Below the pieces are notes generated by a model. That model had not been told where the DNA came from. It was given only the letters and a program-made list of their open reading frames with translations, and made no database searches. A program made the position numbers and the translations under genes. A DNA stretch of 64,000 bases from Thauera sedimentorum (GTDB taxonomy: Bacteria; Pseudomonadota; Gammaproteobacteria; Burkholderiales; Rhodocyclaceae). Each line of letters begins with the position of its first letter. Position 1 is the first letter of the stretch. Shown here piece after piece: positions 12,229 to 53,934 of this stretch. The stretch covers positions 1,550,001 through 1,614,000 of the forward strand of contig NZ_JACTAH010000001.1 of the NCBI RefSeq assembly GCF_014489115.1, given 5' to 3'.

Positions 12229-13749
<1,521 letters not shown>

Positions 13750-15815: not shown

Positions 15816-18212
15816 TCAGAACCGCCCGCCCGCCTTGCCGAACTCGTAGCGCACGCCGATCCACGCCGCACGGGGCGCGCCCGGAGCGACCAGCGCGGAG
15901 AACTCGTCGTCGCCGCCCATGAAGGTGCCGTCGGCTTCGAAGAAGGTCTCGCCCAGCATGCCAACGGTGTGGTACTTCCTGTCGAACAGGTTGTTGACCC
16001 GGGCGAACAGCTGCCAGCCGGTCTTGCCGAAGCTGTAGCGCGTATCCAGGTTCACAACCGTGTAGCCGCTCACCTTGCCGCCGGCGCCCTGGTGGTCGTT
16101 GTTCTCGTTGCCGTGCGAATACTGGCTGGAGAAGGCCACGATGTTGGCGCCGATGGTCCAATGCGGCAGCGCCTGCCATTCGCCGCGCAGCTTGAACTGA
16201 TGACGCGGGATGCCGGGGATGCTGTCGCCCTTGCCGACGAGTATGGTGTCCCCCTCGCCGTCGCTGTCGGTATCCACCGCGCTGGAATTGACCTCGTTGG
16301 CGATCGAGAAGGCGGACTGGTAGGTGGCCTCGATGTAGCTGTAGCCGGCGAACCAGCGGAACTTGCCGATCTCGCCATTCACGCCCAGATCGATCCCCTG
16401 GCGGCGCGTCTTGCCGACGTTGGAGAAGTAGCCGGCGCCGGTTGAATTGGCGGCGATGAACTGGATGTCGTCGGTGTTCTGGGTACGGTACAGGCTGAGG
16501 CTGTAGCCGAACCGGTCCGCGACCTTGCCGCGCACGCCGCCCTCGAAGGTCTTGGACACCACCATGTCGAGCGGCGGATCGCCGGCCATGGCGTTGGGCA
16601 GCTTGCACGGCTGGTCCGGATTGGCACAGCCCAGCTCGATGGCGGTCGGCGCGCGGCTGGCTTCGTTGTAGCTGGCGTACAACGACAGCTTCCTGTTCGG
16701 GGTGATCGCCAGGCCGATCGCCGGATTGAAGCGGTGGAAGCTGTGGTCGCCGGTCAGGGATTCGGGATTTCCGGGGTCCGGGATCAGCTGGTCGCGGTTC
16801 TCCACCCGGGTGTGGTTGTAGCGCCCCGACAGGGTCAGGTGGTAGACCTCGTTGAACGAGAAGGTATCGGTCAGGAAGAAGCTCCAGCTGCGATTGACCC
16901 CGCGCAACTCGACTTCGCCCTCGTCTCCGAACACGCCGATGCCGTCCACGCCGCGGCCGGCGTTGATGGTGCCGAACTCGGTGCCCTGCTCGAAATCGGT
17001 GCGGCTGCGGTCATAGCCCAGCCCGACGATGAACAGGTTCTGGCGGCCCCACAGGTCCTGGTTGAAGTTGAGCTGCGCGCTGGCCCCGTAGCCCACGCGC
17101 CTGGACTTGCTGCGATTGAGCGCCCCGCTGCAGGAGATCTCGGCGTCGTCCTCGTCCGCCCCGGGCACGCAATCGTCCAGATCGAAACCCGGGTCGTCCG
17201 GATCGATGTCGTCGTTGGCATCGCCATTGAGGGTGCGGGTGCGCGCATTGCGGTAGTAGGCATTGCCGCTGATCATGGTGTCGTCATTGATCCAGTGGCT
17301 GGCGTTGAAGTTGAGGAAGGCGAGCTTGTTCGCGGTCTGGTCCGGCTTGGTGTTGATCGCATCCCAGCCCTGGGCGTGCAGGAACTCCCTCTGCACCAGG
17401 CCATTGCCGATCAGGTCGTTGTCGGCCAGGGACAGGCTCAGGCTGAGGTCGGTGCTGTCGTTGCGCCAGCCCAGCTGGCCGAACAGCTGGCGCACGTCGG
17501 AGGGCGAGGCATCGCGCCAGCCATCCTCCTCGAACCAGTTGCCGGCGATGAAGTAGTCCACCCCGTTGGCGGCCACCCCGCCGTACTCGGCCTGGGCGTT
17601 GTAGCGCCCCCAGGAGCCACCGGACAGCTCCACCGCAGCGCCGCGGTGGGTATGGCCGCGCTTGGTCTGCAGCGAAATGGCGCCGCCCAGGGTGTTGAGG
17701 CCGAACAGCGGGTTGGAGCCCGGAATCAAGGACATGTCGGCCAGCGCGTTGGTCGGGATCAGGTCCCAGCTCACCACGTCGCCGAACGGTTCGTTCACGC
17801 GCACGCCATCCTGGTACACCGACAGGCCCTGGGGGGTGCCGAGCAGCGGCGAGGCGGTGAAGCCGCGGAAGTTCACGTTGGGCTGGAAGGGATTGTTCTG
17901 GGTCTCATTGACGTTCACCCCGGTCATGTTCTGCGCCATGTAGTCCGCGATGGTCAGGCTGTGCTGCTCCTGCAGGGCCTCGCCCTCGACCGTCTGCACG
18001 TTGGCCGGCACCTTGCCGACGGGAAGGCCGATGCCCGGCAGCGGCGTGGTGCCGATCACGGTCACCGTCGGCGCGACATGAACGTCACCGTGCTCCTGCG
18101 CACCGGCGGCGCCGGCGCCCGCCGCGGCAACGAAGGCGATGAGCGAGAAGCGCGCGAGCGGACGGTATGCCGCCCGGGGCAAGGGTGAAAATGCGCAGGT
18201 GGAACGGATCAT
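15816..18212 (-). CDS. TonB-dependent outer-membrane receptor with acidic loops
   Basis: A 798-aa outer-membrane receptor. Start ATG 18212 has GAGGAGA and opens with a long signal peptide ending in GAGAAGAQ. The plug shows VTVIGTTPLPGIG, YQDGVRVNEPFGDVVSWDLIP and NTLGGAISLQTKRG; the barrel ends in Phe (GKAGGRF). Two loops are striking: a Cys-bounded very acidic loop around residues 325-355 (DANDDIDPDDPGFDLDDC) and an EF-hand-like DTDSDGEGD around 645. These could bind Ca or lanthanide ions. The gene is divergent from the unusual pqqA operon. Known TonB receptors near quinoprotein loci take up lanthanide chelates or PQQ; which, if either, applies here is open. Confidence 0.87.
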   Translation of the reverse strand: MIRSTCAFSPLPRAAYRPLARFSLIAFVAAAGAGAAGAQEHGDVHVAPTVTVIGTTPLPGIGLPVGKVPANVQTVEGEALQEQHSLTIADYMAQNMTGVNVNETQNNPFQPNVNFRGFTASPLLGTPQGLSVYQDGVRVNEPFGDVVSWDLIPTNALADMSLIPGSNPLFGLNTLGGAISLQTKRGHTHRGAAVELSGGSWGRYNAQAEYGGVAANGVDYFIAGNWFEEDGWRDASPSDVRQLFGQLGWRNDSTDLSLSLSLADNDLIGNGLVQREFLHAQGWDAINTKPDQTANKLAFLNFNASHWINDDTMISGNAYYRNARTRTLNGDANDDIDPDDPGFDLDDCVPGADEDDAEISCSGALNRSKSRRVGYGASAQLNFNQDLWGRQNLFIVGLGYDRSRTDFEQGTEFGTINAGRGVDGIGVFGDEGEVELRGVNRSWSFFLTDTFSFNEVYHLTLSGRYNHTRVENRDQLIPDPGNPESLTGDHSFHRFNPAIGLAITPNRKLSLYASYNEASRAPTAIELGCANPDQPCKLPNAMAGDPPLDMVVSKTFEGGVRGKVADRFGYSLSLYRTQNTDDIQFIAANSTGAGYFSNVGKTRRQGIDLGVNGEIGKFRWFAGYSYIEATYQSAFSIANEVNSSAVDTDSDGEGDTILVGKGDSIPGIPRHQFKLRGEWQALPHWTIGANIVAFSSQYSHGNENNDHQGAGGKVSGYTVVNLDTRYSFGKTGWQLFARVNNLFDRKYHTVGMLGETFFEADGTFMGGDDEFSALVAPGAPRAAWIGVRYEFGKAGGRF

Positions 18213-18671
18213 CGCAGCCTGTCTCCTCTGGTCTTGTCGGGGCTTGCCGATGCGCGGGGGCAGGATGCGCCCTGCACCGGTACAGCCTTCGATTCTAGGA
18301 AGCTGACGGCGCCGGAACCCGGGAAAGCGGCAACACGGACCCGGGAATTCTTCCCGAGTCCGCAGCCATGAAGACGGCCCTGAATGAACAGGTGCGTCCC
18401 CGTACCGACAGGGTCGGCAGCCGTGCCGGCCTCGGGCCCGAGCAGCCCTTCCGTAGCGGCAAGCCATCGCCAGCCGCCGCTGTCCTTAGCCTGGATCAAG
18501 AACGGCGGAGCCCGCCGCCGAATCATGATTGTCGCCATGTGCCGATCACGATTCCGTCGACGTCCGGCTCGACATCCCACGGACGGACGACAGGCGCCTT
18601 GCGGCGATCATGACCACGGACCACGCGCCTGCACCGGTCCGTTCCCACACCATCAATTGAGGAGTCTCACC
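18213..18671. other. Divergent intergenic region, TonB receptor / pqqA operon
   Basis: 459 bases with no convincing gene. It must hold both divergent promoters. I looked for GG-N10-GC sigma-54 sites on both strands and found none of quality. It also contains the mRNA leader of the TonB gene, whose ribosome site at 18220-18229 is complementary to the candidate small RNA at 36888. Confidence 0.6.
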
Positions 18672-18746
18672 ATGCAATGGATTGAACCTGCCTACTGCGA
18701 TATCCGCCTCGGCTTCGAAGTCACCGCTTACGTGTACGTGCGCTGA
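18672..18746 (+). CDS. pqqA: PqqA-type precursor peptide, second copy (pqqA1)
   Basis: A 24-residue peptide, too short for most gene callers. It starts at ATG 18672 after a GAGGAG site. It keeps the PqqA core: Cys9-Asp10, Arg12, Gly14-Phe15, and Glu16-x3-Tyr20 (EVTAY), the pair that PqqE joins by a carbon-carbon bond in PQQ biosynthesis. It differs from the other PqqA here (40415-40489) at about half its positions and has extra tyrosines at 8 and 22. It is followed at once by pqqD and pqqE paralogues but not by pqqB or pqqC, so the product after cross-linking may not be PQQ. Confidence 0.93.
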   Translation: MQWIEPAYCDIRLGFEVTAYVYVR

Positions 18747-18860
18747 GCGTCGCCGGGCGCCCCGGGCACGGCGCTCCGCTTGCGGGGAAGTGCCCGGGGC
18801 GGTGCAACGAGCGCGGCCGGCAGCCTGCATCGCCGCCCGCGCCCAGCAAGGAGAGCAAGC

Positions 18861-19154
18861 ATGAGCGACGCAACCCTGCCTGCGGCGCAGGACCGTTACG
18901 AGATCAATCCGATGTATCTCTTCCGCTGGGAAGACTCCCAGCAGGCCTACGTCCTTCTCTACCCGGAGGGCATCGTCAAGCTCAACCTGACGGCGGGCGA
19001 GATCATCAAGCGCTGCGACGGCCTGCGCACCGTCGGCGAGCTGGTGGCCGAACTGCAGGCCCTGTTCACCGGCGACGCGGAGAGTGTCGCCGAAGGCGTA
19101 TACAAGTTTCTGGAGGTGTTCCGTGCCAAAGGATGGATCCGTCGTCAGGCTTGA
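18861..19154 (+). CDS. pqqD: PqqD-type peptide chaperone, second copy
   Basis: A 97-aa PqqD protein, the RiPP recognition element that binds PqqA and delivers it to PqqE. Start ATG 18861 has AAGGAGAG upstream. The core WEDSQQAYVLLYPEGIVKLNLTAGEIIKRCDG matches PqqD closely and is shared with the canonical copy at 38409. Its last 32 bases overlap the pqqE copy, so the two are translationally coupled. No damage is visible. Confidence 0.93.
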   Translation: MSDATLPAAQDRYEINPMYLFRWEDSQQAYVLLYPEGIVKLNLTAGEIIKRCDGLRTVGELVAELQALFTGDAESVAEGVYKFLEVFRAKGWIRRQA

Positions 19155-20274
19155 CGGCCAGGGCAAGCCCTTGTGGCTGGTGCTCGAGCTGACCTACCGC
19201 TGTCCCCTGAAGTGCCCCTGGTGCAGCAACCCGGTGGATTACGAGCACTGTCACGACAAGGAGCTCTCCACCGAGGAGTGGAAGCGCGTGTTGCGCGAAG
19301 GCCGCGAGCTCGGTGCCCTGCAGCTGGGCTTCACCGGCGGCGAGCCCATGCTGCGCGACGACCTGGAGGAACTCGTGGGCGAGGCCAACCGCCTCGGCTA
19401 CTACACCAACCTCATCACCTCCGGCGTCGGCCTCACCGAAGAGCGCCTGGTCGCGCTCAAGGCCGCGGGGCTCAAGCAGATCCAGCTCTCGCTGCAGTCG
19501 AGCGACCGCGAACTCACCGACAGTCTGGTCGGCGCCCGCGCCTTCGACCTCAAGATCAAGGTCGCACGCATGATCAAGGCGCACGGCTTCCCGATGGTGC
19601 TCAACGTACCGGTGTTCCGCCACAACGCCGACCAGACCGCCGACATCCTGGCGCTCGCCGAGGACATCGGCGTCGACTATCTGGAGTTCGCCAACATCCA
19701 GTACTACAACTGGGCGATGGCCAACCGGGACGAGTTGCTGCCCACCCGCCAGCAGCTGGAAGCGGCGGAGCGCGGGGTCCAGGTGGCGCGCGAGCGCATC
19801 GGTGACCGCATGACGATCTACTTCGTCATTCCCGACTACTACGAGGAGCGGCCCAAGGCGTGCATGAACGGCTGGGGCTCCATCCACCTCACCGTCGCCC
19901 CCGACGGTGCCGCCCTGCCCTGCCAGGAAGCCCGCCTCATCCAGGGGCTCGATTTCCCGACGGTACGCGAGAGGAGCCTCGCCTGGCTGTGGAACGAATC
20001 GCCCACCTTCCGCAAGTTCCGCGGCGACGAATGGATGCGCGAGCCGTGCCGCTCCTGCAGCGAGAAGGAGAAGGACTTCGGCGGCTGCCGCTGTCAGGCC
20101 TTCCTCCTCACCGGCGACGCGGCCAACACCGACCCTGCCTGCGGCAGATCGCCCGCTCATCACCTCATCGGCGAGGCCGTGGCGCGCGCCCACGCACCGG
20201 GGCGCACAGTCAAGCCGCTGGTGATGCGCACCGAACGTGCCGCGCGGGAAGTGCTGGAGGCGGATCGTGGCTAG
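19123..20274 (+). CDS. pqqE: PqqE-type radical SAM peptide cross-linking enzyme, second copy
   Basis: A 383-aa radical SAM/SPASM enzyme. GTG 19123 is chosen because GGAGG lies 7 bases before and the protein then aligns with PqqE. The SAM cluster motif is CPLKCPWC (Cx3Cx2C); the SPASM cysteines are present (CMNGWG, LPCQEA, CRSC, GGCRCQ, ACGRSPAH). PqqE installs the Glu-Tyr bond in PqqA. Sequence is clearly diverged from the copy at 37104, for example in the region after the SAM motif (SNPVDYEHCHDKE versus YNPVDFARDDTE). All catalytic residues I can recognise are there, so it is likely active on the neighbouring PqqA1. Confidence 0.93.
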   Translation: MPKDGSVVRLDGQGKPLWLVLELTYRCPLKCPWCSNPVDYEHCHDKELSTEEWKRVLREGRELGALQLGFTGGEPMLRDDLEELVGEANRLGYYTNLITSGVGLTEERLVALKAAGLKQIQLSLQSSDRELTDSLVGARAFDLKIKVARMIKAHGFPMVLNVPVFRHNADQTADILALAEDIGVDYLEFANIQYYNWAMANRDELLPTRQQLEAAERGVQVARERIGDRMTIYFVIPDYYEERPKACMNGWGSIHLTVAPDGAALPCQEARLIQGLDFPTVRERSLAWLWNESPTFRKFRGDEWMREPCRSCSEKEKDFGGCRCQAFLLTGDAANTDPACGRSPAHHLIGEAVARAHAPGRTVKPLVMRTERAAREVLEADRG

Positions 20275-20362
20275 TCGTCTGCTCGACTCGGCATTGCGCA
20301 CCGTGCTCCTCGGCGTCGGACTGACCGCCGTCCTCGCCCTGGCGCTGCGGCTCGCCGCCTGA
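20267..20362 (+). CDS. 31-aa single-span membrane peptide
   Basis: A small open frame starting at GTG 20267 inside the end of pqqE (overlap 8 bases), with GGAGG six bases before the start. The product is a short basic N-terminus followed by one hydrophobic helix (TVLLGVGLTAVLALALRLAA). The good ribosome site, tight overlap and position within an operon argue for a real gene, but there is no family to compare. It may be a partner of the following PuuD-like membrane protein. Confidence 0.55.
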   Translation: MASRLLDSALRTVLLGVGLTAVLALALRLAA

Positions 20363-20394
20363 TCCCACCCCACCGGAAGAAGCGGGAAACGCGA

Positions 20395-20901
20395 ATGGAA
20401 GGCATCCTCCTCGAAGTGCTGGCCCGCTGGCTGCACTTTCTCGGCGCCATCGTCTGGATCGGCCACAACTATGCCACCGCGGTGAACCGGCCACGCTACG
20501 AGCCGCTCACCGCGGCCGACCTCGCCGACCCGGACAGCCCGCGTCAGCAGGCCCTGCTCGCCCGCGAGCATGGCACCTTCCGCTACGCGTCGCTGGTTAC
20601 CCTGGGCAGCGGCCTCGTCATCCTCTGGCAGCGGGGCTGGCTCGGCGACGCGCTGAGCCTGCAGGGCGGCCTCGCGCCGCTGGGCGTCGGCATATGGCTC
20701 GGCATCGCGATGGTGCTCAACCTGTGGTTGGTGCTGTGGCCCAACCAGAAACGGGTTCTCGGCTTCGTTCGCGCCCCCTTGGAAGACCGCCTGCGTGCGT
20801 CGCGGATGACCTTCCTGTCGGCGCGGGTGAACACCCTGCTGTCGATCCCCGTGCTGTTCCTGATGGCCGCCGGCGCCCATGGACTCGCCCTGTTCAGCTG
20901 A
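20395..20901 (+). CDS. PuuD-like (urate hydroxylase membrane domain) protein
   Basis: A 168-aa integral membrane protein with four helices. RWLHFLGAIVWIGHNYATAVNRP at the N-terminus resembles the membrane domain of PuuD urate hydroxylases and related redox membrane proteins; the two His in the first helix (LHFLG, GHNYA) could ligate haem. There is no C-terminal cytochrome domain. The start at 20395 follows a GGAAGAAG sequence. It sits in the middle of the second pqq-type operon and overlaps the next gene by 23 bases. It might pass electrons from an oxidative step of that pathway to the quinone pool; that is inference. Confidence 0.65.
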   Translation: MEGILLEVLARWLHFLGAIVWIGHNYATAVNRPRYEPLTAADLADPDSPRQQALLAREHGTFRYASLVTLGSGLVILWQRGWLGDALSLQGGLAPLGVGIWLGIAMVLNLWLVLWPNQKRVLGFVRAPLEDRLRASRMTFLSARVNTLLSIPVLFLMAAGAHGLALFS

Positions 20902-21994
20902 ACTGCACGCCGCCGCCCGCCCGCAGCCGGCCACCGGCTACAGCTTCTCGGCCGCGAGCGGGCCGTTGCCAGCCGAGGTGCGGGCGGCGGTCGCCGAGGC
21001 TTGCATGCCACCTAACGGCGGCCGCTCCATCCTGAGCCTGCCGTTCACCTCCGACGCCTACCGCAGGCTGCAGGACGAAACCGAGGCCTGCCTGCGTCGC
21101 CTGCTCGACATCCCCGACGAGTTCCGTGTGCTCTTCCTGCAGGGCGGGGCCACGCTGCAGTTCGCCATGCTGCCCCTCAACCTGCTCGGCGGGGCGCGCC
21201 TGGCGGCCTACGTGGACACCGGCCACTGGTCGCGCCGGGCGATCGAGGAAGCCGGCCGCTACGCCGATCCCGACATCGTCGCGCGCGCCGTGGGGCACAT
21301 CCCCCACGAGCACGACTGGCAACTCGACCCGCGCGCCGCCTATTGCCACATCACCACCAACGAGACCGCCGACGGCCTCCAGTTCGACCGCTTGCCGGCG
21401 ATCCCCGTGCCGCTCGTCGCCGACATGAGCTCGGACCTGCTCACCAGGCCGCTCGATTTCACGCGTCTCGCGCTCGGCTACGCCGCCACCCAGAAGACCA
21501 TCGGCGTGCCGGGGCTGACGGTGCTCATCCTGCGCGCCGACCTCCTCGGACGCGCCCACCCCGCCACGCCGCGGGCGATGAACTACACGGCCCAGGCCGA
21601 GGCCGCGTCGCGGGTGAACACGCCGCCGGTGTTCCCGGTGCTGGTCGCACACCGCATGCTTCACTGGATCGAGCGGCAAGGCGGAGTGGCCGCGATGGCT
21701 GCGGCCGTCGAGCGGCGCAGCGCTGCCGTCTACGCCGTCCTCGACGACAGCGGGGGCTTCTATCGCAACACGATCGCCCGAGCCCACCGGTCGCGCGTGA
21801 ATCCGTGCTTCCACCTCGCCGACCAGGGTCTCACCGAGCGCTTCCTCGACGCGGCGCAGCGGGCGGGGCTGCACGACCTGCGCGGCCACCCGCGGACCGG
21901 CGGCATCCGGGTGAGTCTCTACAACGGCGTCGAGGACGAGGCGGTCGCGGCCCTGGCCGGATTCATGCGCGAGTTCGCGCGCACCCAGGGCTGA
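20879..21994 (+). CDS. SerC-like class V aminotransferase with altered substrate site
   Basis: A 371-aa PLP enzyme of the phosphoserine aminotransferase family. Typical SerC parts are FLQGGATLQFAMLPLNLL, the TNETADG segment, VADMSSDLLTRPLD and the PLP lysine in ATQKTIG, plus GGIRVSLYNGV at the end with the conserved Arg. The His-Arg pair that grips the phosphate of phosphoserine in SerC (SHRS in E. coli) is replaced by Pro-Phe-Thr-Ser at 55-58, so phosphoserine is unlikely to be the substrate. It is translationally coupled to the PuuD-like gene. In this operon it may transaminate or deaminate an amino acid-like intermediate derived from PqqA. Confidence 0.83.
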   Translation: MDSPCSAELHAAARPQPATGYSFSAASGPLPAEVRAAVAEACMPPNGGRSILSLPFTSDAYRRLQDETEACLRRLLDIPDEFRVLFLQGGATLQFAMLPLNLLGGARLAAYVDTGHWSRRAIEEAGRYADPDIVARAVGHIPHEHDWQLDPRAAYCHITTNETADGLQFDRLPAIPVPLVADMSSDLLTRPLDFTRLALGYAATQKTIGVPGLTVLILRADLLGRAHPATPRAMNYTAQAEAASRVNTPPVFPVLVAHRMLHWIERQGGVAAMAAAVERRSAAVYAVLDDSGGFYRNTIARAHRSRVNPCFHLADQGLTERFLDAAQRAGLHDLRGHPRTGGIRVSLYNGVEDEAVAALAGFMREFARTQG

Positions 21995-22091
21995 CAGGCA
22001 TGGCCTCCTCTCTTCGCCAAAGACCACTCGGCAGTCCGGCCGCACGCGGCCGCGCCGGGCGGCCCGGGCACCCGCCGCTGCGAGCCTTGTC

Positions 22092-22964
22092 ATGAGCGCG
22101 ACACCGAGCCCACGCGCGCTGCGCACCCGCCGGGCCCTGGCCGCGCTGCGGCGAGCAGCGGCGTCGGCGGGCAAGGACGGTGGAGGTAAGGTGTATGCGT
22201 ACGCCGGCGCACCGGTTCATGCGATGGGTCTTGCCTTTCCGGGACCGCTCGGGCTGGCTGCGGGCTTCGACCGCTTCGGTCTCCTCGCCCGTACGGCACC
22301 ACGACTCGGTCTGGGAGCGGTCGAGGCGGGCACCTTTTTCGGCGGCAGCGCGGGAGAGCTTGCGGTGCTGGGCAGCGGCACCGCTCGACACGGTTCGAAC
22401 GCGGCGATCCGGGGCGTCAGCATCGGCAAGCGCCCTGCCACGCCCTGGTCGCGTGCCGAGGACGACTTCCTCGACGCCCTGTTCGCCTTCCACCGCGGCG
22501 CGGACTACCTCACGCTCAACCCCGGGCGCGACCACCCGCGGCCGGAACGCTTTGCCATCGTGCTGCGGGAGGTCGTCCGCGCCCGTGACGCCCTCGGCGG
22601 ACGCCGGGACAGGCGGATTCCCCTGGTCGCCAAACTGCCGTTCGCCTGGACGGCCGGCCCGGAGGGGGTGGCCATCGCCACGGCCTTCGTCGCCGCGGGC
22701 GCCGACGGCTTGCTGCTCTCGGCCGAAGGCGCCGCCTGCCCTCGCCATGCCCGCGAAATCCTGCGGCGGATCGCCACGGCACTCGGACGCGAGGCGTGCA
22801 TCGTCAGCGTCGGCGGCATCGACGGCGCGCGCGAAGCACGCGCGCGAATGGATGCCGGCGCGCACCTGATCCAGGTGCACCGTGGCGCCGCCGCGGGCGG
22901 CGCCCGCTTCACCCGTGCGCTCGCGCTCGAACTTTCGCTCCGGCGCTTCGGCGAGCGGCCATGA
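22092..22964 (+). CDS. Dihydroorotate dehydrogenase-like flavoprotein with altered active site
   Basis: A 290-aa TIM-barrel FMN protein related to class 2 PyrD. FMN-site features remain: GPLGLAAGFD near residue 50, GLGAVEAGTFFGG, VAKLPFAWT with the conserved Lys, SVGGIDG and LIQVHRG. The catalytic loop that reads N-x-S-S-P-N-T in PyrD is replaced here by LNPGRDHPRPE, so the catalytic Ser and the dihydroorotate-binding Asn are gone. It therefore probably binds FMN and oxidises or reduces something else. It is the last gene of the pqqA1 operon. A 31-codon frame at 22000-22095 overlaps its start (ATGA) but has no clear sign of being real. Confidence 0.8.
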   Translation: MSATPSPRALRTRRALAALRRAAASAGKDGGGKVYAYAGAPVHAMGLAFPGPLGLAAGFDRFGLLARTAPRLGLGAVEAGTFFGGSAGELAVLGSGTARHGSNAAIRGVSIGKRPATPWSRAEDDFLDALFAFHRGADYLTLNPGRDHPRPERFAIVLREVVRARDALGGRRDRRIPLVAKLPFAWTAGPEGVAIATAFVAAGADGLLLSAEGAACPRHAREILRRIATALGREACIVSVGGIDGAREARARMDAGAHLIQVHRGAAAGGARFTRALALELSLRRFGERP

Positions 22965-23917: not shown

Positions 23918-24574
23918 CTACGCGTGGCAGGCGGCCGCGGCCGGAAAATCCACCAGGCCGTGGCGCACCGCGAGCCTGAGCAGCTTGAAATCGTTGTCGG
24001 CGTCGAGCTTCTGGCGGATCGCCGACATGTGGTTGAGCACGGTCTTCTGGCTCAGGTGCATGCACTGGGCGATGGCCGCGGCCGAATCGCCGCCGGCGGC
24101 CATGCGCAGCACCTCGAATTCGCGCGGGGTCAGGCGCGCGAGGCCTTGCTCGCCGTCGAGCGTGGCGGTGGCGAGCGACTGGGCCACCTCGGCCGACAGC
24201 GTCCGCCGCCCGCCCGCCGCGGCGCGGATGGCGTCGAACATTTCGGTGGGCTCGCAGTTCTTGGTCAGGTAGCCGAGCGCACCGGCACGCGTCGCCTGGG
24301 TAACGTAGCCGGGGTTGTCGTGCATCGACAGCACCAGCACACGCAGCTCGGGCACGCGCGCGAGCATGCGGCGGATGGCCTCGATGCCGCTGCTGCCGCG
24401 CAGGCTGATGTCCACCACCGCCACGTCCACGCCGCCGCGCTGCAGGCAGGCGTAGGCCTCGTCGCCGGTCGCCGCTTCGCCTACCACCTCGAAGCCGGGC
24501 TCGGCGTCAAGCAAGCGCCGGTAGCCATTGCGCACCACCGCATGATCGTCGAGCAGCAGGATGCGTATCGTCAT
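23918..24574 (-). CDS. LuxR/NarL-family response regulator
   Basis: A 218-aa two-component regulator. The receiver has LLLDDHAVVRNG, the phospho-acceptor Asp in VVDISLRG, and the Lys in YLTKN; the C-terminal LuxR helix-turn-helix is LTPREFEVLRMAAGGDSAAAIAQCMHLSQKTVLNHMSAIRQKL. It overlaps the upstream kinase gene by 68 bases and has its own AGGAGGGAG site. Probably regulates alcohol dehydrogenase genes nearby, as the ExaE/PedR2/ErdR types do in Pseudomonas. Confidence 0.92.
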   Translation of the reverse strand: MTIRILLLDDHAVVRNGYRRLLDAEPGFEVVGEAATGDEAYACLQRGGVDVAVVDISLRGSSGIEAIRRMLARVPELRVLVLSMHDNPGYVTQATRAGALGYLTKNCEPTEMFDAIRAAAGGRRTLSAEVAQSLATATLDGEQGLARLTPREFEVLRMAAGGDSAAAIAQCMHLSQKTVLNHMSAIRQKLDADNDFKLLRLAVRHGLVDFPAAAACHA

Positions 24575-25871: not shown

Positions 25872-25906
25872 GGAGCATTCCTCCGTCAGACATCCACGCT
25901 TCCCAT

Positions 25907-25922
25907 AGCAACGCACGTGCCA
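25907..25922 (-). promoter_or_regulatory. Sigma-54 promoter of the kinase-regulator-Cache operon
   Basis: Minus strand TGGCAC, GTGCG, TTGCT: an exact consensus match. Predicted start near 25895, giving a short leader of about 24 bases before the kinase start. Confidence 0.85.
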
Positions 25923-26070
25923 CGGCTCCCGGCGACGACGGGAATTCCACCCGGTACGGCCGGGGGAGCTTCCCGCGACCGCTCACCGCGCTCCGCCGGA
26001 TACTGGCCTCGGCCCCGGACACGCCCCTGGCATGACCGCCGGCCGACCAGACAACGAACGGAGACATGAG

Positions 26071-27957
26071 ATGCCTCAGAAAACCCCCAAGACGGCCAAG
26101 CCGTTGCTGAGCCTGGCGGCAATCGCGGTCGCGACCGCCTGCGCCCTCCCGGCCTCGGCCGTCACCCCGGTCACCTGGAACGACATCGCCAGCGACGGCA
26201 AGAACCCGAACAGCGTGCTGATGTACGGCATGGGCCTGAAGGGCCAGCGCTTCAGCCCGCTGACCCAGATCAACGCCAAGACGGTGGCCGGACTGGTGCC
26301 GGCGTGGTCCTTCTCCTTCGGCGGCGAGAAACAGCGCGGCCAGGAGGCCCAGCCCCTGGTCCATGACGGGGTGATCTACGTCACCTCCTCCTACTCGCGC
26401 ATGTTCGCGCTCGACGCCAGGACCGGCAAGCAGCTGTGGGCCTACGAGCACCGCCTGCCCGACGACATCCGCCCGTGCTGCGACGTGATCAACCGCGGCG
26501 CCGCGATCTATGGCGACAAGGTGTTCTTCGGTACGCTGGACGCGGCCATCGTCGCGCTCGACCGCAAGACCGGCAAGGTGGTGTGGAAGGAGAAGTTCGG
26601 CGACCACAAGGTCGGCTACACCATGACCGGCGCGCCCACCATCGTGAAGGACCAGAAGACCGGCAGGATGCTGCTGGTGCACGGCAGCTCCGGCGACGAG
26701 TTCGGCGTGGTCGGCTACCTGTTCGCGCGTGACCCGGACACCGGCAAGGAAGTGTGGGCGCGTCCGCTGGTCGAAGGCCACATGGGCCGCCTCAACGGCA
26801 AGGACAGCACACCCACCGGCGACGTCAAGGCGCCCTCGTGGCCCAACGACCCGACCCGCCAGACCGGCAAGGTCGAACCCTGGAGCCATGGCGGCGGCGC
26901 CCCCTGGCAGAGCGCCACCTTCGACGCCGAGACCAACACCATCGTCATCGGCGCGGGCAACCCGGCGCCATGGAACACCTGGGCACGAACCGCCCCGGGC
27001 GACGATCCACTCAACTGGGACAGCCTGTTCACCTCCGGCCAGGCCTATGTCGACGCCAGCACCGGCGAGCTCAAGGGCTTCTACCAGCACACCCCGAACG
27101 ACGCCTGGGACTTCTCGGGCAACAACGAGATCGTGCTCTTCGAGTACAAGGACCCGAAGACCGGCAAGATGGTCAAGGCCGGCGCGCACGCCGATCGCAA
27201 CGGCTTCTTCTTCGTCACCGACCGCGAGAAGCTCGCCAACGGCTCGGGCTATCCCAACCGCCCGACCGCGCTGATCGCCGCCTACCCCTTCGTCGAGGGC
27301 ATCACCTGGGCCAAGGGCTTCGACCTCAAGACCGGCAAGCCGATCGAGACCGGCAACCGTCCGCCGCTGCCCAAGGACGGTGCGGAGAAAGGTGAATCGG
27401 TGTTCGTCTCGCCGCCTTTCCTCGGCGGCAAGAACTGGAACCCGATGTCCTACAGCCCGGATACCGGCCTGTTCTACATCGCCGCCAACCACTGGGCGAT
27501 GGACTACTGGACCGAGAAGGTGAACTACAAGGCCGGCTCCGCCTACCTCGGCCAGGGCTTCCGCATCAAGCGCCTGTTCAAGGACCACGTCGGCACGCTG
27601 CGCGCGCTCGATCCGGTGACCGGCAAGATCGTCTGGGAGAACAAGGAGGAGTTCCCGCTGTGGGCCGGCACCCTCGCCACCGCCGGCGGCCTGGTGTTCA
27701 CCGGCACCTCCGACGGCTTCGTGAAGGCGCTCGACGCCAAGACGGGCAAGGAGCTGTGGAAGTTCCAGACCGGCTCCGGCATCGTCTCGGCACCGATCAC
27801 CTGGGAGATGGACGGCGAGCAGTACATCGGCCTGTCCAGCGGCTACGGCGGTGCGGTACCGCTGTGGGGCGGCGACATGGCCGACCTCACCAAGCAGGTG
27901 ACGCAGGGCGGTTCGTTCTGGGTCTTCAAGCTGCCCAAGCAGCTGGCGAGCCGCTGA
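26071..27957 (+). CDS. exaA: PQQ-dependent alcohol dehydrogenase, calcium type
   Basis: A 628-aa periplasmic quinoprotein with signal peptide and eight-bladed propeller. ATG 26071 follows CGGAGAC. The adjacent-Cys ring typical of these enzymes is seen in [10 protein letters not shown], the metal/PQQ site in GAGNPAPWNTW, and the catalytic Asp in TPNDAWDFSGNNE. The residue two after the catalytic Asp is Ser, not Asp, which marks the Ca-dependent ExaA/PedE group. The W-motifs of the propeller recur (for example DAKTGKELWKFQTGSG). It oxidises ethanol and other primary alcohols, passing electrons to the cytochrome two genes downstream. I found no sigma-54 site before it. Confidence 0.95.
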   Translation: MPQKTPKTAKPLLSLAAIAVATACALPASAVTPVTWNDIASDGKNPNSVLMYGMGLKGQRFSPLTQINAKTVAGLVPAWSFSFGGEKQRGQEAQPLVHDGVIYVTSSYSRMFALDARTGKQLWAYEHRLPDDIRPCCDVINRGAAIYGDKVFFGTLDAAIVALDRKTGKVVWKEKFGDHKVGYTMTGAPTIVKDQKTGRMLLVHGSSGDEFGVVGYLFARDPDTGKEVWARPLVEGHMGRLNGKDSTPTGDVKAPSWPNDPTRQTGKVEPWSHGGGAPWQSATFDAETNTIVIGAGNPAPWNTWARTAPGDDPLNWDSLFTSGQAYVDASTGELKGFYQHTPNDAWDFSGNNEIVLFEYKDPKTGKMVKAGAHADRNGFFFVTDREKLANGSGYPNRPTALIAAYPFVEGITWAKGFDLKTGKPIETGNRPPLPKDGAEKGESVFVSPPFLGGKNWNPMSYSPDTGLFYIAANHWAMDYWTEKVNYKAGSAYLGQGFRIKRLFKDHVGTLRALDPVTGKIVWENKEEFPLWAGTLATAGGLVFTGTSDGFVKALDAKTGKELWKFQTGSGIVSAPITWEMDGEQYIGLSSGYGGAVPLWGGDMADLTKQVTQGGSFWVFKLPKQLASR

Positions 27958-29246: not shown

Positions 29247-31046
29247 TCAGCTCTTGTGCAGCTTGAACACCCACACGGAACCGCCCTGCTCCAGGAAGTT
29301 CACGCGCTTGGCCACTTCGCCGCCCCACAGCGGCACCGCACCGCCCCAGCCGGACACCACGGCGACGAACTGCTCGCCGTTGTCCTCCCAGGTGATCGGC
29401 GGGGCGATGACGCCGGAGCCGGTCTGGAACTGCCACAACTCGTCGCCGCTCTGCGCATCGATCGCCTTGAGGTAGCCCTCGGGCGTGCCGTAGAACACCA
29501 GGTCGCCGGCGGTGGTGAGCACCCCGCCCCACAAGGGCGCGCTGTTCTTCACTTCCCAGACGATCTTGCCATTGACCGGATCGACCGCGCGCAGGGCGCC
29601 GATGTAGTCCTCGTAGAGCGGCTTGATGGTGAAGCCCGCGCCCAGGTAGGCGGCGCCGCGCTTGTAGGACACCGGCTCGTTCCAGATGTCCATGCCCCAC
29701 TCGTTGGCCGGCACGTAGAAGTAGCCGGTCTTCGGGCTGTAGGCCATCGGCATCTGGTTCTTGCCACCCAGGAAGGACGGCGCGTTGAACACCACCTCGC
29801 CCTTCTTGCCGTCGCCGCCGGCGTCCTCGAAGGGGCTGCCCGGACGGTTCTGGTCCTTGTAGATCGGCCGGCCGGTCTTCAGGTCGATGCCCGAGGCCCA
29901 GTCGGTGCGGGTGACGAAGGGGAAGGCGTTGAGCAGTTTGCCGTTGGTACGGTCATTGACGAAGAAGAAGCCGTTGCGGTCGGCCTTGCCGCCGGCCTTG
30001 ACCGTCTTCCCGCTCTTCGGATCCCTGTACTCGAAGGAGACGAACTCGTTCACCCCGTCGAAGTCCCAGCCGTCGTGCGGCGTGGTCTGGTAGTGCCATT
30101 CGATCTTGCCGCTGTCCGGGTCGATCGCCACGGTGGAGGACGAATACAGGTTGTCGCCCGGGCGCAGGTGGCTGTTCCACGGCGCCGGGTTGCCGGTGCC
30201 GATGAAGATCAGGTCCACCTCGGGATCGTAGTAGGCCGACAGCCAGGGGGCCGCGCCGCCGGTCTTCCAAAGGTCGCCCGGCCAGCTGGCGTTGGTCTTG
30301 CCGGTGATGCCGTTTTCGACCTGCTTGCCGTCCTTGTCGTACTTGTAGCCCATGTGGCCTTCGACCACCGGACGGGTCCACACCAGCTTGCCGGTCCTGG
30401 CGTCGCGCGCGTCCACGCGGCCGACGATGCCGAACTCGCCGCCGGAGTTGCCGGTGATCACCAGGCCCTTGACGATCTGCGGCGCCGCGGTCATCGAGTA
30501 GCCGGCCTTGTAGTCCTCGATCTTCTCCTTCCACACGACCTTGCCGGTGTCCTTGTCCAGGGCCACCAGCTGGGCGTCCAGGGTGCCGAAGATCACCAGG
30601 TTGCCGTAGATCGCCGCGCCGCGGTTGATCACGTCGCAGCAGGGCATGATGCCGTCGGGCAGGCGGTGCTCGTACTTCCACAGCTTCTCGCCGGTCTTCA
30701 CGTCGAGCGCGAAGATGCGGCTGTAGGAGGCGGTGACGAACATCTTGCCGTCATGGACCAGCGGCTGCGACTGCTGGCCGCGCTGCTTCTCGCCGCCGAA
30801 GGAAAAGGACCACACCGGCACCAGGTCCTTGACGGTCTGGCGATTGACCTGCGTCAGCGGGCTGAAGCGCTGCCCCTTGGTGCCAAGGCCGTGCGTCACC
30901 ACCTGGGTGGTGTCGGTGGCATCGTTCAGGATGTCGGCGTCGGTCACTTCCTTGGCCTGTACCTGTACGCTGCCCAGCGCCATCACGGCCGCGGCGATGA
31001 TGCCCGGCACAATGTGGCGGCGCTTCAATGCATGGATCTGCTCCAT
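29247..31046 (-). CDS. PQQ-dependent alcohol dehydrogenase, lanthanide type
   Basis: A 599-aa periplasmic quinoprotein, related to the one at 26071 but of the PedH/XoxF metal type. Start ATG 31046 after AAGGAGGA, with signal peptide ([20 protein letters not shown]). The adjacent Cys pair is in [10 protein letters not shown] and the metal site in [17 protein letters not shown]. At the catalytic site it reads [13 protein letters not shown]: the Asp two positions after the catalytic Asp is the accepted marker of lanthanide dependence. It has its own sigma-54 promoter at 31137-31152. Having both metal types in one locus suggests a lanthanide switch like PedE/PedH in Pseudomonas putida. Confidence 0.94.
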
Positions 31047-31136
31047 TAGATTTTTCCTCCTTGGTCTCAGGGTGTCTTGTCCGTGGGTTGTTCTCGCCCC
31101 GGCCCACGGGGTGAGCCGGTTGGCGCACCCCCTGTC

Positions 31137-31152
31137 TGCAAGGCTCATGCCA
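31137..31152 (-). promoter_or_regulatory. Sigma-54 promoter of the lanthanide-type dehydrogenase
   Basis: Minus strand TGGCAT, GAGCC, TTGCA; one mismatch in the -24 box. Predicted start near 31125, leaving a leader of about 80 bases. Confidence 0.8.
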
Positions 31153-37103: not shown

Positions 37104-38243
37104 TCAGTCCGCGCAGCCGGCCTGGCGGCGCGATTCGCGCGGGTCGCGGAAGATCAGCGGCGCGCCCGGCGTGCCGGGCTGCTGTGCGCGCGCGACCGCC
37201 GCGCTCACCTTGTCATGGGCGGGCGACTTGTCGCACACCGGATCGGCCGCGGCCGGGTCGCCGGCCAGCATGTAGGCCTGGCAGCGGCAGCCGCCGAGGT
37301 CCTTTTCCTTGTCTGGGCAGCTCCGGCAAGGGTCCTTCATCCAGGCGTCGCCGCGGTAGCGGCTGAAGCCTTCGGATTCGTACCAGATCTCGCGCAAGCC
37401 CATCTCGCGCACGTTCGGGAATGCCAGCCCGGGCAGCATCTTCGCGGTATGGCAGGGCAGCGCGGTGCCGTCCGGGGTGACGGTGAGGAAGACGTTGCCC
37501 CAGCCGTTCATGCACTTCTTCGGCCGCGTCTCGTAGTAGTCCGGCACCACGAAGAAGATCTTGATCCTGTCGCCGAGGCGCTCACGGTATTCGTTGGTGA
37601 TGCGCTCGGCGCGCTGCAGTTGTTCGCGCGAGGGCAGCAGCTGGTCGCGGTTCAAGAGCGCCCAGGAGTAGTACTGGCTGTTGGCCAGTTCCAGGTATTC
37701 GGCGCCCAGCGCCACCGCCATGTCGATGATCTGGCCGATGTAGTCGATGTTGAGCCGGTGCACGACCACGTTCATCACCATCGGCCAGCCCTGCTCCTTG
37801 ATGCGCGCCGCGACCTGCTGCTTGAGCTCGAAGGTGCGGGTGTGGGAGAGGAAGTCGTTGAGCTCCCTGGTCGAGTCCTGGAAGGACAGCTGGATGTGGT
37901 CCAGCCCGGCGGCCTTGAGCGCTGCGGCACGCTCCGCGCTGAGGCCCACGCCAGAGGTCAGCAGGTTGGTGTAGTAGCCCAGGCGGTGCGCTTCGGCGAC
38001 CAGCACTTCGAGGTCCTCGCGCATCATCGGCTCGCCACCGGAGAAGCCGCACTGCACGCTGCCCGCGGCGCGTGCCTCGCGCAGCACGCGCAGCCAGTCG
38101 TCGGTGGACAGTTCGGTGTCGTCACGGGCGAAATCCACCGGGTTGTAGCAGAACGCGCAGTGCAGCGGGCAGCGGTAGGTGAGCTCGGCCAGCAGCCACA
38201 GCGGCGGGCCGGGTTGCGCTACGGAGGAGGAAAGCGGGTTCAT
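37104..38243 (-). CDS. pqqE: PQQ biosynthesis radical SAM enzyme PqqE
   Basis: A 379-aa radical SAM/SPASM enzyme that joins Glu and Tyr of PqqA. SAM motif CPLHCAFC; SPASM cysteines in CMNGWGN, LPCHTA, CRSCPDKEKDLGGCRCQ and VCDKSPAH. It is the last gene of the canonical pqq operon and is separated from pqqD by 165 bases containing a REP pair, an unusual gap in an otherwise overlapping operon. Both halves look intact. Confidence 0.96.
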   Translation of the reverse strand: MNPLSSSVAQPGPPLWLLAELTYRCPLHCAFCYNPVDFARDDTELSTDDWLRVLREARAAGSVQCGFSGGEPMMREDLEVLVAEAHRLGYYTNLLTSGVGLSAERAAALKAAGLDHIQLSFQDSTRELNDFLSHTRTFELKQQVAARIKEQGWPMVMNVVVHRLNIDYIGQIIDMAVALGAEYLELANSQYYSWALLNRDQLLPSREQLQRAERITNEYRERLGDRIKIFFVVPDYYETRPKKCMNGWGNVFLTVTPDGTALPCHTAKMLPGLAFPNVREMGLREIWYESEGFSRYRGDAWMKDPCRSCPDKEKDLGGCRCQAYMLAGDPAAADPVCDKSPAHDKVSAAVARAQQPGTPGAPLIFRDPRESRRQAGCAD

Positions 38244-38288
38244 CGATCGTACCTCTCGGCCCGCGCGCAGGCGGCCCGGAATCCGTGC

Positions 38289-38393
38289 CGATCGCGGGCA
38301 AGCCCGCTCCTACAGGTCGCGCCGAGCGCCCGGGCAGGTTCGCGACCAGATCGCGCGAAGACTGTCCTGTAGGAGCGGCCTTGGCCGCGATCG
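38289..38393. repeat. REP pair (BIME) between pqqD and pqqE
   Basis: Two inverted copies of a REP-like palindrome: 38289-38316 (GCGGGCAAGCCCGCTCCTACA core) and 38366-38393 (TGTAGGAGCGGCCTTGGCCGC core). Such Pseudomonas-style REP elements are mobilised by RAYT transposases and usually lie between genes, and can stop or stabilise transcripts. No RAYT gene is in the window. Confidence 0.82.
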
Positions 38394-38408
38394 AAGCGCG
38401 CAGCCATG

Positions 38409-38690
38409 TCAGACCTCGATCCAGCGCTGCTTGCGCGCCATGTCGAGGAAGGCCAGCACGTCGGCCTGCAGGCCCGTCGCGCCGAAGGCCTCCTCCAGTT
38501 CGGTGACCAGCGCCGGCACGCTGCGCGAGCCGTCGCAGCGCTTCATGATCTCGCCGGCGCTGGCATTGAGCTTCACCATGCCCTCCGGGTAGAGCAGTAC
38601 CCAGGCCTGCTGCGCCTCTTCCCACTGCAGGCGAAAGAGGCGCGCCACCTGCGGGCGGGCAGCGAGCAGCTCGGCTTCTTCGGCGGTCAT
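38409..38690 (-). CDS. pqqD: PQQ biosynthesis peptide chaperone PqqD
   Basis: A 93-aa RiPP recognition protein that holds PqqA for PqqE. Core [36 protein letters not shown]. Start ATG 38690 overlaps the pqqC stop by 4 bases. A longer frame seen upstream is pqqC in the wrong frame. Confidence 0.95.
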
Positions 38691-39433
38691 GCCTTCGGCC
38701 CGGTGATGGCGATCTCGCACTGCTGCAGCATGATCGCGTCGGCCAGCGCCCACAGCAGGTCGAGCTTGAACTGCAGGATCTCCAGCGCGCGTTCCTGCAG
38801 CGCGCGGCTCTGGCTGAAGTAGTCGAGCGTGAAGCGCAGGCCGTGGGCGACGTCGCGGCGCGCCTGGGTGAGGCGGTTGCGGAAATACTGCAGGCCGGCC
38901 GGATCGACCCAGGGGTACATCTGCGGCCAGGTGTCCAGGCGCTGCTGGTGGATGTGCGGGGCGAACAGCTCGGTGAGGCTGGAGGCCACCGCCTCCTGCC
39001 AGGGGCGCTGGCGGGCAAAGTTCACATAGGCATCGACCGCGAAGCGCGCCGCCGGCGACACCAGGCGCTGCGAGGTGACGTCCTCGCGGCTGAGACCGAC
39101 CGCCTCGCCGAGGCGGATCCAGGCCTCGATGCCGCCGTCGTCCTTGATGCCGCCGATGTCGTAGCCGTCGTGGTCGAGCACGCGCTGGATCCACTCGCGG
39201 CGCAGTTCGCGGTCCGGGCAGTTGGACATGATGGCCGCGTCCTTCACGGGAATCGCGACCTGGTAGAGATAGCGGTTGGCCACCCAGCCCTGCAGCTGCG
39301 CCTTGGTGAGCCGGCCCTCGGCCATCATCACGTGGAAGGGGTGATGGATGTGATAGCTCGCGCTCTTGCCGCGCAGGCGGGCTTCGAACTCCTCGCGGCT
39401 CAGCGGCGCGGCCAGCTTTTCCGGTGCATTCAC
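38687..39433 (-). CDS. pqqC: Pyrroloquinoline-quinone synthase PqqC
   Basis: A 248-aa cofactor-free oxidase that performs the last ring closure and eight-electron oxidation to PQQ. Start is GTG 39433 (overlapping the pqqB stop). Conserved active-site blocks are [66 protein letters not shown] and [11 protein letters not shown]. Complete and normal in length. There is no second copy in the operon at 18.7 kb. Confidence 0.96.
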
Positions 39434-40344
39434 GGGACGATCTCCATACCGTCGAAGGAAACCTCGATGCCGTGGGCGGCGAGCGTGGCACGCTCGGCGC
39501 TGTCCTCGTCGAGGATGGGGTTGGTGTTGTTGATGTGGATGAGCACCTTGCGGGTGTCCTGCGGCAGGCGGTCGAGCCACTCGATCATGCCGCCCTCGCC
39601 GCTTTGCGGCAGATGGCCCATGGCGCGCGAGGTCTTCTGCGAGGCGCCCAGGCGGATCATCTCGTCGTCGGTCCACAAGGTGCCGTCGACCAGCACGCAG
39701 TCGGCCGCCTGCATCGCCGCCCACACGTGCGGCTCCATCTCGCCCAGGCCGGGGGCGTAGAACAGGCTGCGGCCGGAGCGCGTGTCGGTAATGGTGACGC
39801 CTATGTTGTCGCCCGGCTGCGGACAGTCGCGGTGCGGCGAATACGGCGGCGCGTTGGAAATCAGCGGCAGCGCGGCAAAGCGCAGACCGGGTACGCCGGG
39901 AATCTCGAAATCCTCGCCGAGCGGCAGCGCGTGCCAGTTCACCCCGCAGTAATGGCCGAGCAGGTTCAGCAGCGGGTTGCCGCGGGTGAGGTCTTCGTGC
40001 ACATGCGGGGTGCACCACAGCTCCAGCGGCTGGCGGTGCTCGCGCAGCATGTAGAGCCCGGTGGTGTGGTCGATCTGTGCGTCGATCAGCACGATGGCGG
40101 CGATCGCGGTGTCGCGCAGCGCGCGTGCCGGCTGCAGTTCGGGAAAGCTGCGGATCTGCTGCAGCACGTCGGGCGAGGCGTTGAACAGCACCCAGCGCTC
40201 GCCGTCGCCGCTCACCGCGATCGACGACTGGGTGCGCGCACGGGCGCGGATGGTGCCGCGGCGCACACCGTCGCAGCGCGGGCAGTTGCAGTTCCACTGC
40301 GGAAAACCGCCGCCGGCCGCGGAACCGAGGACTCGGACTTTCAT
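39430..40344 (-). CDS. pqqB: PQQ biosynthesis hydroxylase PqqB
   Basis: A 304-aa metallo-beta-lactamase-fold protein shown in other bacteria to hydroxylate the tyrosine-derived part of the PQQ precursor. N-terminal [20 protein letters not shown] is the PqqB signature; metal ligands are in [11 protein letters not shown] and later in HINNTNPIL. Start ATG 40344. The gene stop overlaps the pqqC GTG start. Confidence 0.95.
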
Positions 40345-40414
40345 GACGGATCTCGCACGCTATTTGATCGGGTTCGGCGGGCGCCCGGCCGCAGCGCGGG
40401 CGCCCCGGCCACGT

Positions 40415-40489
40415 TCAGCGCGTGGCGATGTACATGGTGATTTCGAAGCCGAAGCGGAAATCGCAGGCGCTCGGGGTTTCCCATTTCAT
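40415..40489 (-). CDS. pqqA: PqqA precursor peptide of the canonical pqq operon
   Basis: A 24-residue peptide, ATG 40489 with AAGGAGA before it. It has Cys9-Asp10, Arg12, Gly14-Phe15 and the Glu16-x3-Tyr20 pair (EITMY) that becomes PQQ; there is only one Tyr. It precedes pqqB by 70 bases in a normal A-B-C-D-E order. A hairpin or weak gap there could limit downstream expression relative to PqqA, but I see no strong terminator. Confidence 0.95.
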   Translation of the reverse strand: MKWETPSACDFRFGFEITMYIATR

Positions 40490-43919: not shown

Positions 43920-43922
43920 GGC

Positions 43923-49469: not shown

Positions 49470-49559
49470 CCCCTTGCCATTCGCTCGTGGACGACCGCCC
49501 TCCCCGCCAAGCGTGACACTGTGCCCACCAAGCATTCAGCCGCACAGGACTCAGCCATC

Positions 49560-52746: not shown

Positions 52747-52812
52747 CCCCAACCCAGCAGTCGAGCGGACCTGCGCAAAAAGCCGCGCTGTCCGCTCACT
52801 TCTACGTTAGAG
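52747..52812 (+). repeat. attC site 2
   Basis: CCCCAAC to GTTAGAG, 66 bases, with the inner palindrome GCGGACCTGCGC/GCGCTGTCCGC. Confidence 0.75.
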
Positions 52813-52816
52813 CGCT

Positions 52817-53149: not shown

Positions 53150-53158
53150 TACACCGCG

Positions 53159-53230
53159 CTCTAACCCGCCGCTCCAGAGGGACGCTACGCCGGCAAGCCG
53201 GCTTCGCGCCCCTGAGCTAGCACGTTAGAG
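53159..53230 (+). repeat. attC site 3
   Basis: CTCTAAC to GTTAGAG, 72 bases, with inner palindrome around GCCGGCAAGCCGGC. Confidence 0.8.
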
Positions 53231-53243
53231 CTTTCTGACTGCT

Positions 53244-53849: not shown

Positions 53850-53930
53850 CATGGCACTCAACCTCGCTCCCTTCGGTCGCTGGACGCTGCGCGATAAAGC
53901 CGCGCAGCGCCGGTTAGCTCTACGTTAGGC
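53844..53930 (+). repeat. attC site 4 (common 87-bp type)
   Basis: CTCTAAC to GTTAGGC. Nearly identical copies occur at 58750 and 59694. The centre GCTGCGCGATAAAGCCGCGCAGC forms the hairpin. Confidence 0.92.
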
Positions 53931-53934
53931 ATCT

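Follow-up and report, generated by a model that had tools for sequence, protein, structure and literature searches.

A second pqqA operon in the window

The stretch of Thauera sedimentorum DNA analysed here (64,000 nucleotides of contig NZ_JACTAH010000001.1, hereafter the window) carries two sets of pqq genes. One is a complete canonical pqqABCDE operon on the - strand (37104-40489), every gene of which is one unbroken frame. The other, the subject of this work, consists of seven genes on the + strand (18672-22964): pqqA2, pqqD2 and pqqE2, followed by genes for a 31-residue peptide, a PuuD-like membrane protein, a SerC-like pyridoxal 5′-phosphate (PLP) enzyme and a PyrD-like flavin mononucleotide (FMN)-type barrel (Table 1). 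The puuD-, serC- and pyrD-like genes are called the module. An earlier note, made from the sequence alone, had described a second PqqA operon with its own PqqD and PqqE and three repurposed enzymes, mostly joined by overlaps or short gaps, and a full pqqABCDE operon elsewhere in the window. The seven genes were found as described; three pairs overlap (pqqD2/pqqE2, pqqE2/31-residue peptide and puuD/serC), and the remaining gaps measure 32-114 bp.

Table 1. Features of the window, with positions counted from its first letter
Feature	Position	Strand	Basis
pqqA2, 24-residue precursor MQWIEPAYCDIRLGFEVTAYVYVR, E-V-T-A-Y core	18672..18746	+	PF08042 38 bits and TIGR02107 35 bits (cut-off 20), both passed
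pqqD2, peptide chaperone	18861..19154	+	TIGR03859 90 bits (cut-off 46)
pqqE2, radical S-adenosylmethionine/SPASM protein, GTG start	19123..20274	+	TIGR02109 506 bits (cut-off 381)
31-residue single-helix membrane peptide	20267..20362	+	motif conserved in relatives
PuuD-like four-helix membrane protein	20395..20901	+	PF06181 Urate_ox_N 37.7 bits (cut-off 26.9), 67 residues only
SerC-like class V PLP enzyme	20879..21994	+	TIGR01364 334 bits (cut-off 443.6); NF003764 366 bits (cut-off 253)
PyrD-like FMN-type barrel	22092..22964	+	TIGR01036 80 bits (cut-off 200)
Degenerate FNR/ANR-type site TTAGCCTGGATCAA	18486..18499	.	2 mismatches; 186 bp upstream of pqqA2
AATCATGATT block 3′ of the site, possible -10 region	18521..18530	+	alignment of 7 upstream regions
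Canonical pqqA1 (MKWETPSACDFRFGFEITMYIATR)	40415..40489	-	profile match and reading frame
Canonical pqqB	39430..40344	-	TIGR02108 432 bits; reading frame
Canonical pqqC (start inferred)	38687..39433	-	TIGR02111 342 bits (match G000:C1:1588690-1589403); reading frame
Canonical pqqD (start inferred)	38409..38690	-	reading frame
Canonical pqqE	37104..38243	-	TIGR02109 527 bits; reading frame
PQQ-dependent alcohol dehydrogenase	26032..27957	+	TIGR03075 739 bits (cut-off 480)
PQQ-dependent alcohol dehydrogenase	29247..31148	-	TIGR03075 789 bits

The second set resembles the canonical one in its peptide genes: PqqA2, PqqD2 and PqqE2 reach the NCBIfam equivalog level, and PqqA2 has the E-x3-Y core, as expected of the peptide step of pyrroloquinoline quinone (PQQ) synthesis. 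It differs in having neither PqqB nor PqqC among the genes at 18672-22964, the sole matches to both in the genome lying at 38-40 kb of the window, and in a PqqE that separates from the canonical copies. This genome gave two PqqA matches. Canonical PqqA carries E[VI]TMY within the pattern R[FIY]G[FM]E[VI]TMY, whereas PqqA2 reads EVTAY and typically has RLGFEVTAYVYVR at its C-terminal end.

Relatives were collected by a scan of genome contigs with PqqE2, which gave at least 80 loci (L-numbers), and 80 of them were examined; L039 and L040 are near-copies. The PuuD-like gene follows pqqE2 in 64 of the 80 listed loci. A SerC-like gene is present in 63 of these 64 (the contig ends in the other), and 51 have a match to the PyrD-like protein at E≤1e-3. 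The remaining 16 loci are 15 canonical ones and L051, which has a PqqE2 without the module. The position of the PuuD-like gene is kept over Alpha-, Beta- and Gammaproteobacteria, in carriers that include Thauera, Aromatoleum, Hydrogenophaga, Methylotenera, Methylobacillus, Hyphomicrobium, Dechloromonas, Herminiimonas, Paraburkholderia and Stutzerimonas, some of them metagenome-assembled genomes (MAGs). Since the PuuD-like gene follows pqqE2 in so many loci, chance or mis-called genes are ruled out, and we conclude that the second set is a real, conserved operon.

In a tree of 88 PqqE proteins, 63 module-linked copies and that of L051 separated from 24 canonical ones with support of 100/99. The canonical rows comprised the nearest ones to PqqE2 and second copies from the same loci, and the tree was midpoint-rooted and thus effectively unrooted, so the PqqE2 group is a split and not a proven clade. 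On this tree, a recent duplication of the local pqqE as the source of PqqE2 is ruled out. Both the extension of the gene order beyond one genome and the placement of this PqqE outside the canonical group, on which the earlier note had staked its proposal, are borne out by these data. L051 (8001-11352, a Dechloromonas MAG) has an E2-type pqqE directly before pqqB, pqqC, pqqA2 and pqqD2, with no match to puuD or serC in the 17-kb locus, which is an apparent loss of the module.

The 31-residue peptide looks like a real gene as judged from its sequence. In 51 of 65 loci (the window included), but in none of 1300 shuffled pqqE2-puuD regions, the interval between the two genes contains a frame of 25-60 residues with the motif [DE][STH]x3[TS]x3Gx2L[TSI]. 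Because the motif was defined after the peptides had been inspected, the shuffles serve as a control for chance and not as an independent test. Eight of the 14 misses belong to the Hyphomicrobium-type clade (L020, L021, L023, L026, L027, L037, L041 and L047), with a gap of at most 67 bp, and at least four of the other six (L005, L007, L022 and L063) carry near-miss peptides. No mention of such a peptide was found in the available part of PMC12423496.

The PuuD-like protein has 168 residues, and its structure model (pLDDT 90.9) shows four long helices. His14, His24, His59 and His162 are invariant in an alignment of 30 rows; there is no Cys in the protein, and hence no CxxCH motif. On its fold and possible His ligands it is at most a candidate for a cytochrome b561-like di-heme four-helix protein. 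It had no match in the NCBIfam search, and its model no Foldseek match in the PDB at E≤0.001; searching with a sequence profile likewise gave no PDB match at E≤1. It resembles the PuuD cytochrome c urate oxidase (PMC4562309, available in part) in being a membrane protein with Urate_ox_N (DUF989) similarity over 67 residues, but the eight-helix DUF989 region and the cytochrome c domain that characterize that enzyme are both absent from it. Of 399 genomes sampled from the order, about 100 encode members of a second PuuD-like four-helix family, which score at most 157 bits against the PuuD-like profile.

The SerC-like and PyrD-like proteins appear, from alignments, to diverge at substrate-binding places. 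The former is a clear homologue of phosphoserine aminotransferase (best solved relative 4xk1, E 8e-83); all 26 rows retain Lys206, Asp182 and Arg344, the PLP-binding Lys and Asp among them. It differs from SerC in that the aligned His-Arg pair, which we take to be the site for the phosphate of the phosphoserine side chain, is replaced by Phe56 (26 of 26) and by Thr, Ser or Ile at position 57, and in scoring below TIGR01364 though above NF003764. The latter has class 2 dihydroorotate dehydrogenase (DHODH) as its closest solved fold (Escherichia coli PyrD, 7t5k; Foldseek 4e-17); the barrel and the phosphate-end glycines are conserved, and Lys181, Gly241, Gly256 and Gln261 are kept in 29 of 29 rows. 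Unlike PyrD, it has no counterpart in its family profile of two DHODH loop segments, presumably the substrate loops, and it scores below the cut-off of every DHODH model that it matched, far below in the case of the equivalog. The position aligned to what we take to be the catalytic Ser holds Ser in 1 of 29 rows, and the neighbouring position in 13 of 29. Housekeeping serC and pyrD genes placed at the operon by coincidence are ruled out, full-scoring SerC and PyrD being encoded elsewhere.

Genomes with a sole or shared source of PqqA and PqqE

PqqC and PqqE were searched for in 50 genomes, taken from 50 of the 80 listed loci, 49 of which carry the PuuD-like gene. PqqC was present in 49 of the 50 (all but G032). 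Twelve genomes gave a single PqqE match. In nine of these (G013, G022-G025, G028, G030, G033 and G042) the only PqqE is of the E2 type and is followed by puuD and serC, PqqC is present, and the single PqqA adjoins pqqB and pqqC. One PqqA2 and one PqqE2 must in these nine merged-operon genomes feed both PqqB/PqqC and the module. Three of the nine are isolates (Simplicispira hankyongi, Dechloromonas denitrificans and D. agitata), listed without completeness figures. The other three of the 12 are G032, without a PqqC match, G040 (locus L051), without the module, and G039, with two PqqA.

A family-wide sample was also analysed, comprising 249 evenly sampled genomes of the family to which the window belongs, with statistics uncorrected for kinship throughout. 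The PuuD-like marker was found in 27 of them, with a lowest score of 271 bits as against at most 157 for the paralogues of the order-level sample. The latter (completeness at least 90) held only six clusters among 399 genomes, too few for a test of association. In the family, PqqC accompanied the cluster in 23 of 27 genomes and was present in 48 of the 222 without it (p=1e-10, kinship uncorrected). For this count TIGR02111 matched 73 of the 249 genomes, 69 over the cut-off; the distant matches of G516 and G561 were excluded and the truncated ones of G528 and G650 retained.

The four cluster genomes without a PqqC match are G545 (identical to G032; 100% complete, 30 contigs), G559 (99%, 10 contigs), G542 (99%, 320 contigs) and G517 (85%). 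A PqqB profile search gave no match in any of them, yet each encodes a PQQ alcohol dehydrogenase that passes the cut-off. PqqA was found once each in G545, G559 and G542, and had no match in the incomplete G517. In G559, pqqA2, pqqD2, pqqE2, puuD, serC and pyrD form one cluster and keep its gene order; the matches to pqqA, puuD, serC and pyrD are free of internal stops, and a PQQ alcohol dehydrogenase gene is about 8 kb away on the same contig. In G545, pqqE2-puuD-serC-pyrD is about 7 kb from two such dehydrogenase genes, the sole PqqA match and a pqqD being on another contig. G542 and G517 are weaker cases, because only pqqE2-puuD-serC was seen, on short contigs.

The regions within 350 bp upstream were scanned for the FNR/ANR consensus TTGAY-N4-RTCAA, related loci being counted separately. 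Operons led by pqqA2 had a perfect site in 16 of 41 cases (0.08 expected) and a site with at most one mismatch in 26 of 41 (1.38 expected), as against 0 of 23 for canonical pqqA at one mismatch or fewer (0.87 expected); at pqqB starts of merged or pqqB-led operons the figure was 1 of 10 (0.2 expected). The wider consensus was adopted after TTGAC sites had appeared in a strict scan with TTGAT-N4-ATCAA, which at one mismatch or fewer had given 12 of 66 A2-type pqqA genes (0.22 expected) and none of the 16 canonical genes. The window site TTAGCCTGGATCAA aligns with the perfect sites of six relatives; its counterpart in near relatives is found 182-184 bp upstream. The block AATCATGATT is identical in four of the seven aligned regions (the window included), one base off in L005 and L008, and absent from L007. 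From these patterns, operons led by pqqA2 are probably under an FNR/ANR-type regulator, and AATCATGATT is a possible -10 region of an FNR-activated promoter.

Ten of the 64 cluster loci, but none of the 15 canonical loci, have genes like ubiU and ubiV in their flanks, and one representative each of UbiV, UbiU, UbiT and UbiD scored over its cut-off. This neighbourhood is suggestive only, because few clades account for the 10 loci and many of the contigs are short. The UbiT/UbiU/UbiV system of oxygen-independent ubiquinone synthesis is an anoxic counterpart of an oxygen-dependent cofactor pathway, as the operon would be, although its protein families are different from those of the operon.

Proposed function of the operon

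The gene order pqqAED-puuD-serC-pyrD is described for Hyphomicrobium denitrificans (Hden_0548-0553) and other denitrifiers, including Azoarcus sp. DN11, in PMC12423496 (Mol Microbiol 2025, available in part), where oxygen-independent PQQ synthesis is speculated for the cluster. The earlier note's designation of the pathway as undescribed therefore does not stand. As in the window, which has the genes of that cluster, the H. denitrificans set lies beside a complete canonical one; regulation there is via SoxR/sHdrR, and no mention of an FNR-type site at the operon was found in the available part. The same holds for merged operons, genomes without pqqB and pqqC, and active-site losses, so that the genome evidence given here extends beyond the 2025 proposal. 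No other publication on this idea is evident in the accessible literature on pqqE with puuD or on oxygen-independent PQQ synthesis.

From the genome comparisons, we consider it likely that the operon is an oxygen-independent branch of PQQ biosynthesis, for anoxia or low oxygen. In denitrifiers, PQQ-dependent alcohol dehydrogenases work in the absence of air. Canonical PqqC, in contrast, uses O2, and Klebsiella pneumoniae and Pseudomonas aeruginosa, given as counterexamples, have the canonical genes only and make no PQQ anaerobically (PMC12423496). We count the transcription data of that paper (section 2.9) in favour of this reading. Six proteins and a micro-peptide would then replace two oxygen-dependent steps, in parallel to anoxic ubiquinone synthesis, and the genomes that carry only the second set are natural test cases.

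In the mechanism that we propose, PqqD2 would present PqqA2 to PqqE2, which would form the Glu-Tyr cross-link known from the canonical route; the cross-linked product would then be released by an unlinked protease. Family membership and the merged operons point to these shared steps. After the cross-link, the module would replace the oxygen-using PqqB and PqqC, as the gene content of a few genomes suggests. The role that we would assign with most certainty is that of the PuuD-like protein, which may oxidise the aromatic ring with water as the oxygen source and pass the electrons to the quinone/cytochrome pool; the 31-residue peptide is probably its small subunit. If water supplies the ring oxygens, this would be new chemistry. 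With less certainty, the PyrD-like FMN protein could dehydrogenate a partly reduced ring, as dihydroorotate dehydrogenase does with its own substrate, and, least certainly, the SerC-like enzyme could work on the free amino-acid end, perhaps setting up the pyrrole ring.

PQQ is the likelier product because in some relatives PqqB/PqqC have no other source of PqqA and PqqE than this set, and because in a few genomes with PQQ-dependent dehydrogenases no further PQQ gene set was found. The earlier note had reasoned that PQQ supply does not need this set and that the product would be another; the nine shared-precursor genomes and the four without pqqB and pqqC do not support that step.

Several points weigh against an oxygen-independent branch. 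No member of the operon stands out as a replacement for the ring-hydroxylating PqqB, and the PyrD-like protein's loss of the catalytic Ser hinges on the alignment. Both PQQ nitrogens derive from Tyr and Glu, so a transaminase is unexpected. PqqC is present in 48 of the 49 puuD-bearing genomes, which makes sole-pathway cases rare. Operons led by pqqE2 had an FNR/ANR-type site with at most one mismatch in 0 of 23 cases, and with at most two in 4 of 23 (5.2 expected), in a set that includes L004, L015 and L058, whose pqqA2 was probably lost at contig ends; the site of the window itself has two mismatches. NosZ was found in 24 of the 27 cluster genomes of the family and 120 of the 222 others (p=3.5e-4, kinship uncorrected), but among PqqC bearers in 20 of 23 with the cluster and 37 of 48 without it (p=0.52, kinship uncorrected), and an association with denitrification was dropped as proof. 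No assay of any module enzyme was found in the accessible literature, and PQQ import may explain the genomes without pqqB and pqqC.

It is unlikely that the operon makes a different PqqA-derived compound (a cofactor, signal or metallophore), for which the SerC-like enzyme would transaminate the cross-linked Glu-Tyr and the PyrD-like one would oxidise it. SerC-like chemistry would strip an amino group that is retained in PQQ, PqqC is already present in most carriers (49 of 50 genomes), and PqqE2 and PqqA2 are a distinct sequence type, all of which would fit another product. The same single PqqA and PqqE must, however, feed PqqB/PqqC in nine genomes, and cluster genomes without detected pqqB and pqqC retain PQQ alcohol dehydrogenases, on the same contig in G559 and G545. 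Quite unlikely, too, is a PqqA-derived quinone analogue of PQQ whose amino-acid end is changed through the SerC-like enzyme and which quinoprotein dehydrogenases would take up under anoxia; G559 and similar genomes would then have no other cofactor of this kind.

Very unlikely is a module that is accessory, with pqqA2-pqqD2-pqqE2 as an anaerobically induced duplicate that feeds PqqB/PqqC when oxygen is low and the three proteins serving, for example, electron disposal or precursor protection. The retention of PqqC in 49 of 50 genomes would agree with it, as would FNR-type sites, which speak to regulation and not to chemistry; against this, the PuuD-like gene stays after pqqE2 in 64 of the 80 listed loci and three proteobacterial classes, and the module persists where pqqB and pqqC were not found. 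That the latter genomes import PQQ through a TonB receptor, their cluster being a remnant or unrelated and uninformative on the product, seems highly improbable: quinoproteins can be supplied by imported PQQ without synthesis, PqqU-type import is widespread (PMC12124388, available in part) and a PqqU-like receptor is encoded in the window (49521-51683), but G559 has its six genes in cluster order and free of stops in the four matches named above.

Other features of the window

The PqqU-like TonB receptor scored 649 bits with NF041535 (E 5.6e-195), under the cut-off of 1200; with it, this genome may import PQQ besides making it. Another TonB-type receptor gene (15816-18467) is divergent from pqqA2; its product had no match in a PDB sequence search at E≤0.001, and similar genes lie close to several other cluster loci. 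An ExaC acetaldehyde dehydrogenase (12229-13749; NF050026 passed) is encoded here and near the cluster in many Pseudomonas/Stutzerimonas loci, so that the window has the appearance of an alcohol-oxidation island. A gene pair for a response regulator and a histidine kinase (23918-25916), with NCBIfam scores under the cut-offs, separates the operon from a PQQ alcohol dehydrogenase gene. Near the canonical operon, 42765-44903 encodes a PQQ-associated ABC substrate-binding protein (TIGR03863, under the cut-off) and a beta-propeller protein (TIGR03866, over the cut-off). The open frames of 52800-64000 mostly have a low third-position guanine-plus-cytosine content, and an IS5-type transposase gene is located there (61918-62787; NF033581 over the cut-off); on these two grounds, this region is a probable acquired island.

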